DNA of 34,074 bases from Clostridia bacterium (lineage in GTDB: Bacteria > Bacillota > Clostridia > Lutisporales > Lutisporaceae). A program made the position numbers and the translations under genes. The notes beneath the pieces are model-generated. The model saw only the letters and a program-made list of their open reading frames with translations. It did no database searches and was not told the DNA's origin. The stretch's first letter is position 1. Every line of letters begins with the position of its first letter. The stretch is from contig JARBUB010000037.1 in assembly GCA_029239905.1 (NCBI GenBank), forward strand, positions 1 through 34,074, written 5' to 3'. This document shows, piece by piece, positions 1,882 through 13,835 of this stretch.

Positions 1882-2027
1882 AAGAACACCTCACTCTTTA
1901 AAATATTCGGACTCTCAAATTTCTTATGCATAGTAGATTTGAGAAGGATTAAAAAAAAGTTTGTAGAAAACATTATAATATATTTTCAAATATGTATTTT
2001 TAATAGCATTTTTTTTGTAAATCATGG

Positions 2028-2033
2028 TATAAT
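2028..2033 (+). promoter_or_regulatory. Extended -10 promoter element (TGGTATAAT) for the 2102-3134 operon
   Basis: TGG TATAAT upstream of the operon; weak -35. Confidence 0.5.
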
Positions 2034-2046
2034 ATAATTATAAACA

Positions 2047-2058
2047 GAACACTTGTTC
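2047..2058. promoter_or_regulatory. SOS/LexA-type operator GAAC-ACTT-GTTC
   Basis: Perfect GAACNNNNGTTC palindrome, 14 bp downstream of the -10, overlapping the expected transcription start. Confidence 0.55.
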
Positions 2059-2101
2059 GCATCAAGATATTTGTTATTGTTTATGATAAGGAGGTTCTTT
2101 T

Positions 2102-2689
2102 ATGAATAAAAAGGATTTAAAAGCTAAAGACTTATTGCTTACACTTTTATTTTTACCGGGAATTAACAATGAGTATAATGAGCCTATAGATGGAAGGACT
2201 AGAATTACAAAAATGTTCTATCTATTTGATAAAGAGATAGTTCAATATTTTAACAATTTTAATATTATCAATATGCCAGAGTTTTTTGCTTATAACTATG
2301 GACCTTTCTCAAAAGAATTATTAGATGATATTGGTTTTTTCAGCGCAATAGGATTTGTAAATGAGAAAACACTTGAACAGCCTATGTCAGAATCAGAAGC
2401 TGCTGAATATTGTTTTGATAAGTACGATGATATTGGATATGGAGAAGAATCAGAGAGTTGCGAAAAGGAGAATCCTTTAGAAGTAAGTTATTATCTTACC
2501 GAAAAGGGAATAGAATATGTTAAGGAAAACGTAATTAATAACTTTTCAGAGGATCAGATCGAATTACTTACTAAGTTTAAAAGCAAAATAAACGCACTTC
2601 CTCTTGATGCAATAATAGAATATGTTTATAAAAAGTATCCTGAAAGTGCAGAGAAATCAAAAATAAAAGATAAGTATTTGAAGAATTAA
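2102..2689 (+). CDS. YwgA-like protein of unknown function
   Basis: RBS AAGGAGG upstream; EYNEPIDGRTRITKMFYLF...YNYGPFSKEL resembles YwgA-type proteins. Confidence 0.55.
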   Translation: MNKKDLKAKDLLLTLLFLPGINNEYNEPIDGRTRITKMFYLFDKEIVQYFNNFNIINMPEFFAYNYGPFSKELLDDIGFFSAIGFVNEKTLEQPMSESEAAEYCFDKYDDIGYGEESESCEKENPLEVSYYLTEKGIEYVKENVINNFSEDQIELLTKFKSKINALPLDAIIEYVYKKYPESAEKSKIKDKYLKN

Positions 2690-2699
2690 GGTGGTTTTT

Positions 2700-3134
2700 A
2701 TGACAGAAACTGAAATGATGCTTGACTGCTATAACAAGTTGCAATCAAATGAATTATATAAAGAAATTGTATTAGAAGTACCATATCTTTCTAGGTGTAT
2801 TGATATGGTACTTGTAGACCAAAATAACGAGATTTTGAGTATTGAGTTTAAATTAAAAGACTGGAGAAAGGCTATTGCGCAAGCAAAGGATCATAGGTTG
2901 GGAGCTGATAGAGCATATATATGCTTGCCAAAACCTTATAAGGAAGTATCAAAGCTATTAATACAGGAAGTTGAAAATCAAGGGATAGGCTTACTACTAT
3001 ATGATAATGAAAGTGAGTATCCATTTATAGAAGTAGTACCATCAAAGTCTTTGAATGATAGATGGCAACCATGGATCGATAGTCTGAAAAATAGAATTAA
3101 TAGAATCTCTGAAAAAGTAGTTTTTGAGAGATAA
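2700..3134 (+). CDS. PD-(D/E)XK nuclease-like hypothetical protein
   Basis: IDMVLVDQNNEILSIEFKLKDWRKAIAQAKDH resembles a D...ExK nuclease core. ATG at 2700 preferred over the track start at 2691 (AAGGTGG upstream). Confidence 0.5.
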   Translation: MTETEMMLDCYNKLQSNELYKEIVLEVPYLSRCIDMVLVDQNNEILSIEFKLKDWRKAIAQAKDHRLGADRAYICLPKPYKEVSKLLIQEVENQGIGLLLYDNESEYPFIEVVPSKSLNDRWQPWIDSLKNRINRISEKVVFER

Positions 3135-3146
3135 TACATTAATTTT

Positions 3147-4469
3147 TTAAAACCACCCATCATTCAATGCATTTTCAATGCCCTTGTAACAGAATTCAAC
3201 CTTATGATTTTTAAAAAAGGAAATGTATCTTTTATAGGGTAAGTTTATTCTATAAAATGTTTCATTTTTGTCTGCAATGGGTTTAATATCTTTTAAAATA
3301 GAACGATATAACTTGGGGTTGTCCTTTTGGTGAAGGATAACCTTTATTTTTGCACTAGGTTTGATAGCTTTTTTTAATAAATATCTTAATTCAAAGTCTG
3401 CATCAGGGAATGAATATCCAATAAAAATTATTTCATCAGCCTCACATAAATCTAAATAAGCATTATGCCACACGTTTTTTAAATGTAGATTATTAAAAGC
3501 TTTTATAAAGGTTGGGGTTATAATAAGTCTTCTGAGCTTATATTCTCTGCTGGACGATTCGCAAAATTTACACTTCACTTCACCTTTGTTACTGTATTGT
3601 AGTGATATATTTCTAGCGTAGTCAGAATATAAACGACCACAATTACTGCAGACTAACCAATTTATTGAACCATGTAATTTCATCAGTTTAATATTATAAT
3701 TACCTTTTGCTTTTATATGAATTGATGGAACTTCTGAATTAATATCGTAATTGTAACAACAGTAATCAGGAAAAATTTGTTTTTCAGGATGAATCAAGTT
3801 ATTACTCTTACACTTATCGTAAATGTACTTATCTAATACTGTATCCCAGTTTAAAGTTATTAAAGAAAAGGTATCAGCTTCTAAGCCAGGTTTTAATCTT
3901 TTTCTTATTAGGAACTCTGCAATTTTATCATATAATTCAACATGGCTGGAAATATGTATAGAATTAGAAATTGAATATACTATACAGTAGTTTAAGCTTT
4001 CTTGAATATTGTCCATATCAGCTACCGAATACAGCGAAAAGTATTCTTTTGATAATGATGCTTTGTCAAGCAGTGTAAATACATCTTCAAGAGAAATATC
4101 AATGTCTTTAAGGTGAATATAAAATTGATTCCATTTTTCATTGAGTTCTATATTTGTGTTATCATATCTGTTAATATCGTAATCATATGAAACAAATTTA
4201 TCTTTGAATCTCTGACGAAGCTGGATATCTCCAAAAGTCTGTATAATAAATTTTGTAAGTATACGTCTGCTTTTTTCAAAGAATTCATATTGACTTATTA
4301 ACATAACAGAAAACTCATCAAAGGATTCAATAAAACCAAGGGGCATTGTAATAATTGGTTTTTGCAAAGTAAAAATGTTATTCAAGATATTTGATTGAAT
4401 TGGTAGCTTCGCTGCTACTGACGCACCGGCACCAAATATATAAACCTTCTTTTTAACTGGTCTAGACAT
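3147..4469 (-). CDS. SIR2-like domain protein
   Basis: N-terminal KVYIFGAGASVAAKLP, KLHGSINWLVCSNCG...CKFC zinc ribbon, IIFIGYSFPDADFELR. True start probably the ATG at 4469, sharing TAATG with the upstream stop. Confidence 0.75.
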   Translation of the reverse strand: MSRPVKKKVYIFGAGASVAAKLPIQSNILNNIFTLQKPIITMPLGFIESFDEFSVMLISQYEFFEKSRRILTKFIIQTFGDIQLRQRFKDKFVSYDYDINRYDNTNIELNEKWNQFYIHLKDIDISLEDVFTLLDKASLSKEYFSLYSVADMDNIQESLNYCIVYSISNSIHISSHVELYDKIAEFLIRKRLKPGLEADTFSLITLNWDTVLDKYIYDKCKSNNLIHPEKQIFPDYCCYNYDINSEVPSIHIKAKGNYNIKLMKLHGSINWLVCSNCGRLYSDYARNISLQYSNKGEVKCKFCESSSREYKLRRLIITPTFIKAFNNLHLKNVWHNAYLDLCEADEIIFIGYSFPDADFELRYLLKKAIKPSAKIKVILHQKDNPKLYRSILKDIKPIADKNETFYRINLPYKRYISFFKNHKVEFCYKGIENALNDGWF

Positions 4470-5884
4470 TATTTCAACCCCACTAGAGATTTTAAAACTG
4501 ACGACCAATTACTTAAATAGTCAATTTGCTTAGACAATTCAGGTTCATGTGGAGCATAATCGCTATTAGTTTTTTCTAATCTGCTTATGAAATCATTTAG
4601 GCTTCTTTTTTCTACCTCTAAGAACTCTTTATGCTTGTTGTACTGATAATGTAATACGCAAATCTCTTTTGTATCTTGACTTGCATAGCTTCTTTTTTGT
4701 TTTACTCCATGTAGGGTAATGTCGTAGAACTCAGTATTTTCAAATAACGAGAAATTATTAATATCATCTTGAATAACTTCCATGCAAGTTGGGCAATGAC
4801 AAATATTCTTCTTATACTCTCTTGCTCCATCAGATGGAGGCACAGAAAAATAGCCCAATGACCTTAATAGCGTACTGGCATCCTTATAATCAAGGCGATT
4901 ATGTAAGGGATAATAGTAATACTTATTTGTAGGTATACCTCCTCCAACTGGAACTACAGCTCGACTCTCGCCATATTCAAGAGCATGTCCAACACCGCTC
5001 AATTCAAATCCAAGCTCGTTTTTAAATCCGGTTAATATAGTAGAGAAGAAACCACCATACAAATTATAAATTGGGATTTCATTTTGAGTAAATTTTTTAA
5101 TAATTTCTACAAAGCTATTTAATTCTGAAATATTTGCATCATGGTCATCAAACTTATCAATCCATAATAATACACCACTTGGTTTAACCTTAGTATATTC
5201 ATCTAAGATTTCATTTCTAAAGCTTTCATTAGTAAGGATTTCCTTTGAGACTACAAGCTGTGCATAGACTTCTTGATCATTTGCTATTGATTTTGTTAGC
5301 TTAATAAATTCACAATTTAGTGGCAACCATTTAAAATCAGTAGGTTTTGTAGTTAAGTAAAAATAGGGTGCTATTAAAAAACATGGTTTCAATTTACTTA
5401 TATCAAGAGCGGCATTATTTATATAGTCCATAAATCCTTTTTTTTCTAATTCTGTAATAATAGTATTAAGCTGAAAATTAATAACGTTTTTACAGAATTC
5501 CAACTTTAATTCAGGTGTATTAAAATGTGAGGGTAATACACTTATTTCAGAATTAATATTTGATTGTATTGGTTCGCCATATGCTTCAATTAAGTTTTCA
5601 ACAGATTTCTTTATTTTTATTTTCTTTTCTTTTTCACTATAGGAAGATATAGTACTTATGTCATGTTGAAATGCATGTGTAATAGGATCAATAAAGTAAC
5701 CTTTCGAACGCTTGCTTTTTAATATATGCATCATAATAAAACCTGCAATAGCACCAGGTGTATATGCTAACATATTTCCGTTAAAAGCCAATAAATCAAA
5801 TGAATTTTTAATTTGCTCAATATACTTCTGCTCTGCATTGGTTCCATATCTCAAAATATGTTTCATATTACTGCAATTATCCAT
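4469..5884 (-). CDS. TGT/DpdA-like TIM-barrel protein (putative base-transglycosylase-like)
   Basis: SGVGHALEYGESRAVVPVGGG followed by a CxCxxC motif (CHCPTC) and a downstream CVLHYQYNKHKEFLE histidine segment, resembling the zinc region of TGT-family proteins. RBS GAGGGGGAG. Confidence 0.45.
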   Translation of the reverse strand: MDNCSNMKHILRYGTNAEQKYIEQIKNSFDLLAFNGNMLAYTPGAIAGFIMMHILKSKRSKGYFIDPITHAFQHDISTISSYSEKEKKIKIKKSVENLIEAYGEPIQSNINSEISVLPSHFNTPELKLEFCKNVINFQLNTIITELEKKGFMDYINNAALDISKLKPCFLIAPYFYLTTKPTDFKWLPLNCEFIKLTKSIANDQEVYAQLVVSKEILTNESFRNEILDEYTKVKPSGVLLWIDKFDDHDANISELNSFVEIIKKFTQNEIPIYNLYGGFFSTILTGFKNELGFELSGVGHALEYGESRAVVPVGGGIPTNKYYYYPLHNRLDYKDASTLLRSLGYFSVPPSDGAREYKKNICHCPTCMEVIQDDINNFSLFENTEFYDITLHGVKQKRSYASQDTKEICVLHYQYNKHKEFLEVEKRSLNDFISRLEKTNSDYAPHEPELSKQIDYLSNWSSVLKSLVGLK

Positions 5885-5960
5885 AGCAACTCCCCCTCGT
5901 TACATTGTTATTATGTTTATAGCCATTACCATATAAGAGATTATTTTCCTTAAATAGGTG

Positions 5961-5990
5961 TAAAAATAGTCCCCTTTGGAGGACTATTGA
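5961..5990 (-). terminator. Rho-independent terminator of the repressor gene
   Basis: Minus strand AATAGTCCTCCAAAGGGGACTATT followed by TTTAC; 8-bp perfect outer stem. Confidence 0.7.
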
Positions 5991-6027
5991 TAACAAATTA
6001 TTATTCATATTATTTTTACTAACTAAC

Positions 6028-6789
6028 CTAAGTTTTTTTTATATGAGATAGCACATCAAGATACTGTCTCAAGCTAACCGCATCAAGTCCTAATGAAATA
6101 GCCTTTTCTATGGTCTCATTCCATTCATTACTTAGACTCTCTTTATCATGTAGAAAGTCTCTATATGTAGACATAGTTGGAGCATCCTTTTGGACACTTA
6201 CCAGGGTGCCAATAATCTTATGCACACCGTTAACTTTAATATCTGGATAACTTGGATTGGCAGCTCTTAATACAGGGGTGCCGTTTTCTTGACAGAAGAA
6301 TTTAAGAGTAGCGGTCCATTCACCTTCATTGGCACCAGCAGCGACGATCTGTCCATGTTGAGCAGTGCTTGTCTGCTTCATAATAGCAATATCACCTTCA
6401 TGTATGCCTACCCAGCTCATGCTGTCTCCTACAACCCTCAATGCAAAGTCTGCCTTTAAATCCGTGGGGACTTCTATTTGCCCATCCCAATTATCTTCCG
6501 CAAGTAATGGAAGTCCGGCACGGATAGTGCCAAGTATAGGAATATTGAATCTATTTTGTGTATCTTTAAATTTCTCATCTATATAACCTGCAACTACAAG
6601 CAATTTCATATAGTCCAGATTTAAATAATCAGATATTTTTTTTAAAATCTCCGGACTAGGATTTAATCTTTCTCCGGATTCAATTTTTGATATTTCTGTG
6701 TTGCTAATTCCTGTGTAAAGAGCAAGTTGCCTTTGTGAGTAATCTTTTTTATCTCTAGCTTCTTTAATTATTTCTCCCACAGTTTTCAT
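6028..6789 (-). CDS. CI/LexA-like phage repressor (XRE HTH + S24 peptidase)
   Basis: HTH YSQRQLALYTGISNTEISKIESGER; cleavage-site-like RAGLPL; GDSMSWVGIHEGDIAIM catalytic serine region. Confidence 0.92.
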   Translation of the reverse strand: MKTVGEIIKEARDKKDYSQRQLALYTGISNTEISKIESGERLNPSPEILKKISDYLNLDYMKLLVVAGYIDEKFKDTQNRFNIPILGTIRAGLPLLAEDNWDGQIEVPTDLKADFALRVVGDSMSWVGIHEGDIAIMKQTSTAQHGQIVAAGANEGEWTATLKFFCQENGTPVLRAANPSYPDIKVNGVHKIIGTLVSVQKDAPTMSTYRDFLHDKESLSNEWNETIEKAISLGLDAVSLRQYLDVLSHIKKT

Positions 6790-12161: not shown

Positions 12162-12422
12162 ATGAATAAACCTCATTGCTACGGAAAAATGGATTGGGTA
12201 TTAAAGTACTCAGAGGATGAAATACCAAGAACAAGTATTTGCTCTTGCAACTATACAAACAGTTGTTTAAGGATTACTAATAACAAAAGACAGGAAGTTA
12301 AATGCAACGAAGCTGAAAAAACTACCGAAAACAAATGTTTAGGGTATCAAATGTCAGAACATGATGATGAGCCAATAGAAAGATGCAAAGGGTGCAAAGA
12401 CAATATTTTTTATGAAGAATAG
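12162..12422 (+). CDS. Cysteine-rich small hypothetical protein
   Basis: MNKPHCYGKMDWVLKYSEDEIPRTSICSCNYTNSCLR...CKGCKDNIFYEE; RBS AAGGAG. Confidence 0.6.
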   Translation: MNKPHCYGKMDWVLKYSEDEIPRTSICSCNYTNSCLRITNNKRQEVKCNEAEKTTENKCLGYQMSEHDDEPIERCKGCKDNIFYEE

Positions 12423-12468
12423 TTACACATCACAAGATAGATATTCAATGAGATTGGAGGTTTTTGAA

Positions 12469-12810
12469 TTGGACAAAGACTGTATATACTATCTTAGTCA
12501 TCCATGCACAACTTTTGGAGATCCAGCTGCTAATAGATATGCAGCTGCTATATATGAACGTTGTTTAAGCGATATGCATCAAATCACTATGATAAATCCT
12601 ATTGTTATAATTCCTGTTAACACAGAAGACTCTGTTGCAATGATAATGTGCAGGAAGATGTTTGACGTATGCGGTGCAATAATTATGTGTCCAAATTGGG
12701 ACAAGTCCAAAGGCTGTAACGAAGAGTTTCAGTGGGCATTGCAGGATAACAAGCCAATATATATTTTGAATCAGGACTTAACTGTATTTCGATATGAGCT
12801 AGCAGGTTAA
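12469..12810 (+). CDS. DUF4406 / nucleoside 2-deoxyribosyltransferase-like protein
   Basis: CIYYLSHPCTTFGDPAANRYAAAIYERC...AIIMCPNWDKSKGCNEEFQWALQDNKPIYIL. TTG start at 12469 behind GGAGG preferred. Confidence 0.65.
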   Translation: MDKDCIYYLSHPCTTFGDPAANRYAAAIYERCLSDMHQITMINPIVIIPVNTEDSVAMIMCRKMFDVCGAIIMCPNWDKSKGCNEEFQWALQDNKPIYILNQDLTVFRYELAG

Positions 12811-12839
12811 GAAATTTTATAGTAAGAGGGTGATACAAA

Positions 12840-13835
12840 TTGCCTAATAGGATAATAAAAGAAAGCATCTGCATAAGCGAAGATATAGATGAATTGAGTC
12901 CTGAAGAAGAAGCTTTTTTTTATAGAATAATTGTGAATTGTGATGACTATGGAAGAATGGATGCAAGGACTCAAATTGTAAGAGCTAAGTGCTACCCTTT
13001 AAGGACAGATCGATTAAGTCTTGAAGTTATCGATAGTTGGCTGCTAGCACTTACAAAGAGATTAATTACTCTATATGAGGTTTGCGGAAAAAGATACCTT
13101 CAAGTAAATACCTGGGAAAGACATCAAAACATTAGGGCTAAAGAAAGCAAATTTCCGTCGATAGAAGAAGGTGATATTATAAACCTACATATGAATACGG
13201 ATGAATACATATGTAATCATGTGCAATCAAATGTTCCCGTATCTCGTATCTCGTATCTCGATACTCGTAACTCGATACTCGATAATATGTCTGCACCTGT
13301 CGGTACAGACGATTGCGCAAAGGCCTCGGCTGAGAAACCCAATTCAAAGGGTGGAGCGCAGAATGGAGATTCTGGCAAAGGCAAGAATGAGTATACAGAT
13401 GAGTTTGAGAAGTTTTGGAGCTACTATCCTCGTAAAACGGAGAAATCTGCTGCATTTAGCAAATGGAAGGCCAGGCTTAAGCAAAAGGTGTCAGCTGCGG
13501 ATATGATAAAGGCTGCACAAAACTATGCTGAAAAGTGTAAGCTAGAGGGCGCAGAAGAAAGATTCATAAAGCATGCGAAAACTTTCTTGGGTGAGAATAA
13601 ACCATTTGAAGAGTTTATAACGGGGACATCCATACAAAAGGCTGGTAAAGCATATCCTCTAGCAGGAAAAAGTAAGTCTAATGGATTTAATAATTTTACG
13701 CCAAGGGACTATGACCATAAAGACCTTGAAGAGAAGCTGCTAAAGAGGAGCAGTATCGAAAACCCAATGAGCGAGGAAGAATTTGAAAAGCTCATGGCAG
13801 ATCGTAGAGCAAGAGCAGAACTTAACGTTCAATAG
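12840..13835 (+). CDS. Phage replisome organiser / DnaD-like replication protein
   Basis: MPNRIIKESICISEDIDELSPEEEAFFYRIIVNCDDYGRMDARTQIVRAKCYPLR...VNTWERHQNIRAKESKFP; second domain FEKFWSYYPRKTEKSAAFSKWKARLK. Confidence 0.85.
   Translation: MPNRIIKESICISEDIDELSPEEEAFFYRIIVNCDDYGRMDARTQIVRAKCYPLRTDRLSLEVIDSWLLALTKRLITLYEVCGKRYLQVNTWERHQNIRAKESKFPSIEEGDIINLHMNTDEYICNHVQSNVPVSRISYLDTRNSILDNMSAPVGTDDCAKASAEKPNSKGGAQNGDSGKGKNEYTDEFEKFWSYYPRKTEKSAAFSKWKARLKQKVSAADMIKAAQNYAEKCKLEGAEERFIKHAKTFLGENKPFEEFITGTSIQKAGKAYPLAGKSKSNGFNNFTPRDYDHKDLEEKLLKRSSIENPMSEEEFEKLMADRRARAELNVQ
13238..13286 (+). repeat. Seven 7-bp tandem iteron-like repeats (CGTATCT/CGATACT) within the replication gene
   Basis: CGTATCT CGTATCT CGTATCT CGATACT CGTAACT CGATACT CGATAAT. 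Confidence 0.85.

Follow-up and report, generated by a model that had tools for sequence, protein, structure and literature searches.

The locus considered here raises the question of whether a short gene cluster carried near one end of a prophage represents an immune system and, if so, whether it is of a kind already described. The window, i.e., the whole stretch of DNA that was analyzed, comprises 34,074 nucleotides of a Clostridia bacterium contig (JARBUB010000037.1) and harbors terminase (TerL), portal, capsid, tail, and amidase genes to the right of the cluster, which identifies it as a prophage. An earlier note, made from the sequence alone, had proposed a candidate defense module at positions 3147-5884, in which a protein related to tRNA-guanine transglycosylases (TGT) or DpdA is coupled to a SIR2-like effector. 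Both of the minus-strand open reading frames on which that proposal was built are present, but its extent was drawn too narrowly, as the unit spans positions 2102-5884 and includes a Panacea-like gene and a PD-(D/E)XK gene at 2102-3134. The features to which we refer below are as follows.

202-1881: large serine recombinase, forming the left flank of the cassette
2000-6000: low-GC region, with about 28-33% GC compared to 36-41% in the flanks, whose limits match the four genes
2102-2689, plus strand: gene A, encoding a 195-aa Panacea/SocA-like protein, likely an antitoxin-type control protein
2691-3134, plus strand: gene B, encoding a 147-aa protein of predicted PD-(D/E)XK nuclease fold, with E6...D38...E52-x-K54...Q64
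3147-4469, minus strand: gene D, encoding a 440-aa SIR2-like protein, likely an NADase effector, with the motifs GAGAS, N207-W-D209, H266, a zinc ribbon (C274/C277/C300/C303), and GYSFPDAD
4467-4471, minus strand: TAATG, read in the sequence, in which the stop codon of gene C overlaps the start codon of gene D (translational coupling)
4469-5884, minus strand: gene C, encoding a 471-aa protein of predicted TGT fold, with the motifs C362-x-C364-x2-C367...H412, D66PxTHxxQ, and EYGExR...PVGGG
5962-5988, minus strand: inverted repeat AATAGTCC-TCCAAAGG-GGACTATT (8-bp stem, 8-nt loop), between the repressor and gene C, at the site given as 5961-5990 in the earlier note
6028-6789: S24-type repressor, forming the right flank of the cassette

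Genes A and B, on the plus strand, converge on genes C and D, on the minus strand. The junction between the latter pair is exactly as formerly reported, with the TAA stop codon of gene C (4471-4469) and the ATG start codon of gene D (4469-4467) overlapping by one base. This ATG is the likely start of gene D; a 453-aa version initiated at a TTG codon begins within gene C, and such a longer start is unnecessary. The ribosome binding site attributed to gene C was also found (GAGGGGGAG, immediately 5' of the start at 5884). As regards the terminator that was thought to insulate the pair from the repressor, the inverted repeat itself is legible, but its T-run is short and a consensus terminator scan did not call it, and we consider it a possible weak terminator. 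The low GC content across the four genes is as would be expected if the cassette had been gained from elsewhere.

Protein C is predicted to adopt the TIM-barrel fold of the TGT family, in agreement with the earlier note. Its AlphaFold model, based on 19 sequences, has a pLDDT of 89.7 and a pTM of 0.90, and each of the first 46 PDB entries that Foldseek matched to this model is a tRNA-guanine transglycosylase (best E 6.4e-5, prob 1.00). Structural alignment with VIA-align yielded a Z score of 20.9 to the archaeosine TGT 1iq8 (304 residues, 3.4 Å, 11% identity) and of about 18 to both Zymomonas Tgt and QTRT1. None of the 19 protein C members matches PF01702 or has a convincing Pfam family, and application of the PF01702 profile to the host genome retrieved one ordinary Tgt and not gene C. 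Searches of NCBIfam and PHROGs with the window protein produced no match of note, in PADLOC (2023) the best E value reached by the 19 members was no better than 0.006, a sequence search of the PDB with the protein C profile returned chance matches only, and the viral structure library returned no match at E <= 0.001.

The CxCxxC...H signature formerly ascribed to this protein corresponds to C362, C364, C367, and H412, predicted zinc ligands of which C364 is retained in 18 of the 19 relatives and the other three in all 19. As this zinc motif is the only part of protein C that aligns with Tgt in a profile-profile comparison, the catalytic residues can be mapped by strand order only. When mapped in this manner, N35 and D66 occupy what we take to be the places of Tgt Asn70 and Asp102, Tyr174 is found at the place of Asp156, the base-recognizing residue of Tgt, and His or Gln (position 300) is found at that of the nucleophile, Asp280. 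Because neither Asp156 nor Asp280 appears to be kept, classical base exchange, the activity with which the earlier note had linked this family, is unlikely, and a binding or sensing role is favored. Asp280, the TGT nucleophile, is absent from the noncatalytic eukaryotic TGT subunit, which keeps its zinc site (PMC3660597); protein C resembles this subunit in that its zinc site appears to be kept and its nucleophile lost.

The cleft contains two acidic residues, D66 and E306, which do not vary among the 19 members and leave room for another chemistry. Protein C might accordingly be imagined as an active transglycosylase or glycosylase of altered substrate, which would act on a base of tRNA or DNA by cutting or exchanging it, or conjugate a nucleobase to a partner, with the state of the base licensing SIR2. 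While the TGT fold, the retained zinc site, and the location of D66 would suit such an enzyme, we regard it as unlikely given the substitutions at the Asp280 and Asp156 places, the presence of Thr at the position matching E306 in a distant homologue (locus L083), and the fact that neither preQ0 nor dpd genes were seen by eye among the open reading frames of the window, as the earlier note had remarked, or among those beside the related loci.

The remaining three proteins are more readily related to known families. Protein D matches PF13289 (SIR2_2) at 7.4e-6, above the cutoff, and PADLOC SIR2 models, including SIR2 and Aga_SIR2, at values down to 3.2e-9, while its profile matches 8w9l, a SIR2-like domain protein, at 3e-7. 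The SIR2-like motifs that had been recognized in the downstream gene are all present, and across 16 relatives there is no variation in GAGxS, NWD (N207 and D209), HGS (H266), the four cysteines, or GYSxPxAD. Judged from its sequence, protein D is of SIR2 type with all catalytic, NAD-binding, and zinc residues kept, and it is likely to function as an NADase effector. Protein B is predicted to possess the PD-(D/E)XK core fold with a full D...ExK motif: its AlphaFold model (pLDDT 93.8, pTM 0.88) is nearest in structure to 3dnx, NucS/EndoMS, XisH, and Can2, with Foldseek values of 1.2e-5, 2.6e-4, and 6e-4 and VIA Z scores of 12.8, 9.8, and 9.6 for 3dnx, NucS, and Can2, respectively, and none of the residues E6, D38, E52, K54, and Q64 varies among 20 members. 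Protein A of the window scores just below the 25.7 cutoff of the PF13274 (SocA_Panacea) profile (E 1.1e-4, 23.5 bits), which matches 11 of the 20 gene A family members at E <= 0.01 (best 2.9e-5), and the Haloarcula homologue is annotated as a SocA-domain antitoxin. The PADLOC model PDC-M19A, which was also considered for gene A, was set aside since the match is only partial; no paper naming this model was found in the open-access literature.

Single-protein queries (P0002) against phages and genome contigs returned no matches. When a four-row alignment was used to scan genome contigs, 20 loci were retrieved, representing Firmicutes, Kryptoniota, Paceibacterota, Terriglobia, Scalindua, Phycisphaerae, Aminicenantes, and Spiroplasma. 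A profile survey of all loci, once duplicates had been discarded, left 24 distinct gene C loci (a short fragment of C, L007, and C-like proteins beside kinases being excluded from the counts), which come from bacteria of many phyla, one archaeal plasmid, and a second phage. Within these loci, gene C adjoins gene A in 23 cases and gene B in 22; neighbors are missing at L020, which is cut by the contig end, and in the decayed Spiroplasma copy (L032), from which B has been lost. SIR2 is present in 20 of the 24 loci, namely, 18 with complete motifs, one truncated fusion (L031), and one remnant (L032); the 18 include L023, whose GAGFS stretch lies in frame 5' of the listed start. It is absent from L003, L004, L016, and L017. 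Genes A, B, and C therefore constitute a core which is constant across the loci, and more so than SIR2. The system is nonetheless rare, with a full gene C in 3 of 398 genomes of the phylum, and a whole-genome search within the same phylum identified two sequences in which A, B, C, and D lie head to tail.

Three arrangements of the genes were observed: A-B-C-D; C-D-A-B, seen in Halanaerobium and an unclassified member of the Halanaerobiales; and the convergent layout of C-D against A-B, found in the two phages. This difference in order indicates that it is the gene set which has been kept and not one ancestral operon order. The second virus contig carries all four genes in the identical slot and the identical convergent layout, its C, A, and B proteins being 51-58% identical to those of the window and its SIR2 protein 54%. 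Genes A, B, and C reside on plasmids of Haloarcula and Arthrobacter, the archaeal (Haloarcula) copy being a three-gene form (A-B-C) with neither SIR2 nor an obvious transmembrane partner. The distance matrices of the four protein families correlate at 0.85-0.93 pairwise (13 loci; 0 of 5,000 permutations as high), and this correlation, together with the recurrence of the pair in the 18 loci with complete SIR2 motifs, indicates that the coupling of the TGT-like and SIR2 genes, as formerly put forward, is more than chance.

Some copies are visibly degraded. In Spiroplasma (L032:5312-7326), A is intact, C is broken, B has been lost, and a SIR2 remnant is legible under code 4. At L031:4067-5905, C and SIR2 are fused in one open reading frame from which CxCxxC is missing in the C part and GAGxS in the SIR2 part, and which is either the product of an in-frame deletion or an assembly artifact. 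Fragments of B and C in a further genome (G275:C11:18689-18922 and 42511-42627), which also has a kinase-type locus, are the remains of a lost cassette.

Where SIR2 is absent, its place may be taken by a different protein. Loci L016 and L017 encode, between A and B, proteins of 170-174 aa in which two or three segments are hydrophobic, and which are homologous to each other (26%, E 1e-15), and L004 encodes a 200-aa protein of similar topology, also between A and B; no convincing Pfam match was obtained for any of the three. SIR2 and the small membrane protein are mutually exclusive in the loci seen, and the replacement of the one by the other in these three loci is an effector swap. A transmembrane protein encoded 3' of B at L013 was rejected as a further example, as that locus has SIR2 and the protein is unlike the others. 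Of the 24 loci, 23 contain an effector gene of one type or the other (SIR2 or transmembrane), be it intact or decayed.

The reading of the cluster as a candidate defense module is in keeping with its position as low-GC prophage cargo and with the restriction-modification (RM) or Abi genes located by some of the related loci. The cassette neighbors AbiD and a type I RM system at L019 and is bordered on either side by a type II RM system at L027; since such neighbors were scanned at few loci, chosen by eye, they are support for a defense role and not a statistic. In Moorella mulderi, two more SIR2-type proteins are encoded within 7 kb of the cassette (L021:1455-3950 and 12403-13260), one of which, at 831 aa, begins with a long portion of seemingly helical, repeat-like character.

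The protein B profile also matches loci without A and D. At L083:2-1942, a homologue of C (hhalign 97.6%, E 3.5e-12, 312 aligned columns) is followed by B; the contig begins within C, A and D are not visible, and two genes further on resemble, by eye, an AbiE-type pair. At three other loci (L084:3619-6034, L082:1785-4625, and L081:2015-3709), B is accompanied by a protein kinase and by a C-like protein that has a DPQ motif, and a B-type PD-(D/E)XK gene lies beside a protein kinase at L070:2-1014. The C-like proteins beside kinases reach a best E of 0.0045 to the C family, which is weak sequence evidence, and they were not accepted as proven homologues of C; the kinase loci may form a kinase branch within this superfamily. 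Such B-containing loci bring to mind a system in which B is the main weapon, i.e., a nuclease that the TGT-fold protein directs to modified or foreign DNA, SIR2 or the transmembrane protein serving as a backup. The intact PD-(D/E)XK motif and predicted fold, the Haloarcula A-B-C form, and the B and C-homologue pair at L083 would accord with this notion, which we consider quite improbable in view of the near-constant presence of an effector gene and of the very small size of B, in which a DNA recognition domain is not visible.

We propose, as the rather more probable interpretation, that the cassette is a prophage-borne four-gene immune (or toxin-antitoxin-like) system of a kind undescribed in the sources searched, in which A, B, and C act as a control and sensing core and SIR2 as a replaceable killing effector, an organization in which a constant part and a replaceable part correspond to the build of sensor-effector immune systems. 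We infer a defense role, complex formation, NAD+ hydrolysis, and an inhibitory function of the Panacea protein, and our guess is that the infection signal is a nucleic acid, most likely tRNA or DNA. In the resting state, A, probably with B and C, would keep the effector silent. Upon infection by another phage, B and C would engage the nucleic acid signal by means of the TGT-type cleft and the nuclease-type site, the effector would be set free, and SIR2 would hydrolyze NAD+, the loss of which would halt the cell ahead of the replication of the invader. Depletion of NAD+ by SIR2 domains is established for several known systems (e.g., PMC10981675). Panacea proteins directly neutralize diverse toxins, including membrane-depolarizing ones (PMC8832971), as would suit a single control gene that serves two types of effector, and Panacea has been proposed to have a sensory role (PMC10440598). 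Against this four-gene model, gene A falls just below the Pfam Panacea cutoff, the core may act alone, as suggested by the four loci without SIR2 and by the Haloarcula form, and the substrate of SIR2 could be other than NAD+; furthermore, in most loci SIR2 comes at the end of a single operon, unlike the classical two-gene toxin-antitoxin layout, and the system is rare.

The same Panacea connection would be shared by a plain prophage toxin-antitoxin or addiction module, in which a Panacea antitoxin opposes a SIR2 toxin, B and C are accessory or regulatory, and selection acts on plasmid or prophage maintenance. Cassettes do occur on prophages and plasmids, and accessory genes are found beside Panacea toxin-antitoxin pairs (PMC8832971); such third genes, however, accompany a small fraction of the pairs only (PMC8832971), whereas B and C are here more constant than the toxin. 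Moreover, several cassette loci sit on long chromosomal contigs, some beside RM or Abi genes. We therefore judge an addiction module to be unlikely and retain the four-gene immune system as the preferred reading. A more specific and tentative version of it, which we consider less likely than not, is that protein C is a TGT-fold pseudoenzyme which senses modified or damaged bases of tRNA or DNA (for instance, 7-deazaguanines in phage DNA or phage-attacked tRNAs) and, with its PD-(D/E)XK partner, switches Panacea-restrained, exchangeable NADase or membrane effectors, including, in the wider family, perhaps protein kinases. If true, the proposed system would represent a widely spread immune system with a core that includes a protein family unnamed in Pfam, NCBIfam, PADLOC, and PHROGs, as well as a second, apparently separate reuse of the TGT scaffold in immunity, after type IV CBASS, and would connect SIR2 and membrane effectors with Panacea antitoxin-like control via one constant sensing core. 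The four small genes of this clean cassette render it directly testable.

No named system with this gene set was found in PADLOC 2023 or the open-access literature, and the libraries and papers searched yielded neither a fold at odds with the TGT and SIR2 assignments nor a sign that the pairing is unconserved, so that the proposal of the earlier note withstood the outcomes by which it might have failed. The open-access literature likewise held no description of defense by Panacea with SIR2, DUF4065 with SIR2, or TGT with SIR2, although a later or closed one may exist. The cassette resembles the Panacea (PanA) toxin-antitoxin systems (PMC8832971, PMC10440598) in its gene A, the Haloarcula copy of which (WP_049938427.1) is included in the Panacea survey (PMC8832971, PMC10440598), but adds two further constant core genes; SIR2 does not occur in the text of PMC8832971 or PMC10440598, nor does transglycosylase in that of PMC10440598. 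With Thoeris, SIR2-HerA, DSR1/2, the short-pAgo SIR2 system (SPARSA), and AVAST it shares a SIR2 domain as the likely NADase effector, whereas the sensor proteins of those systems are absent from the cassette, in which SIR2 is not fused to SLOG, STAND, or pAgo and lies beside three other genes. Protein C has the predicted fold and structural zinc site of Tgt, archaeosine TGT, QTRT1/QTRT2, and DpdA, but differs from Tgt and DpdA in its about 7-12% identity, its lack of a PF01702 match, its gene neighbors, the residues that strand order places at Asp156 and Asp280, and the absence of preQ0 genes from the neighborhoods seen; identity with a dpd system was dropped, as the partner genes are lacking. 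Type IV CBASS (Cap9/Cap10; PMC11996544) is similar in that a TGT-family protein has been repurposed in an immune system. In contrast, the partners in the cassette are SIR2, Panacea, and PD-(D/E)XK proteins, protein C matches no PADLOC model, and neither a CD-NTase nor a QueC-like Cap9 was seen by eye among the cassette genes or the neighbors read; identity with type IV CBASS was likewise dropped for want of its partner genes. The combination, the TGT-like family, and the effector swap are undescribed in the sources searched, while each of the folds of which the cassette is composed is already known in immunity.
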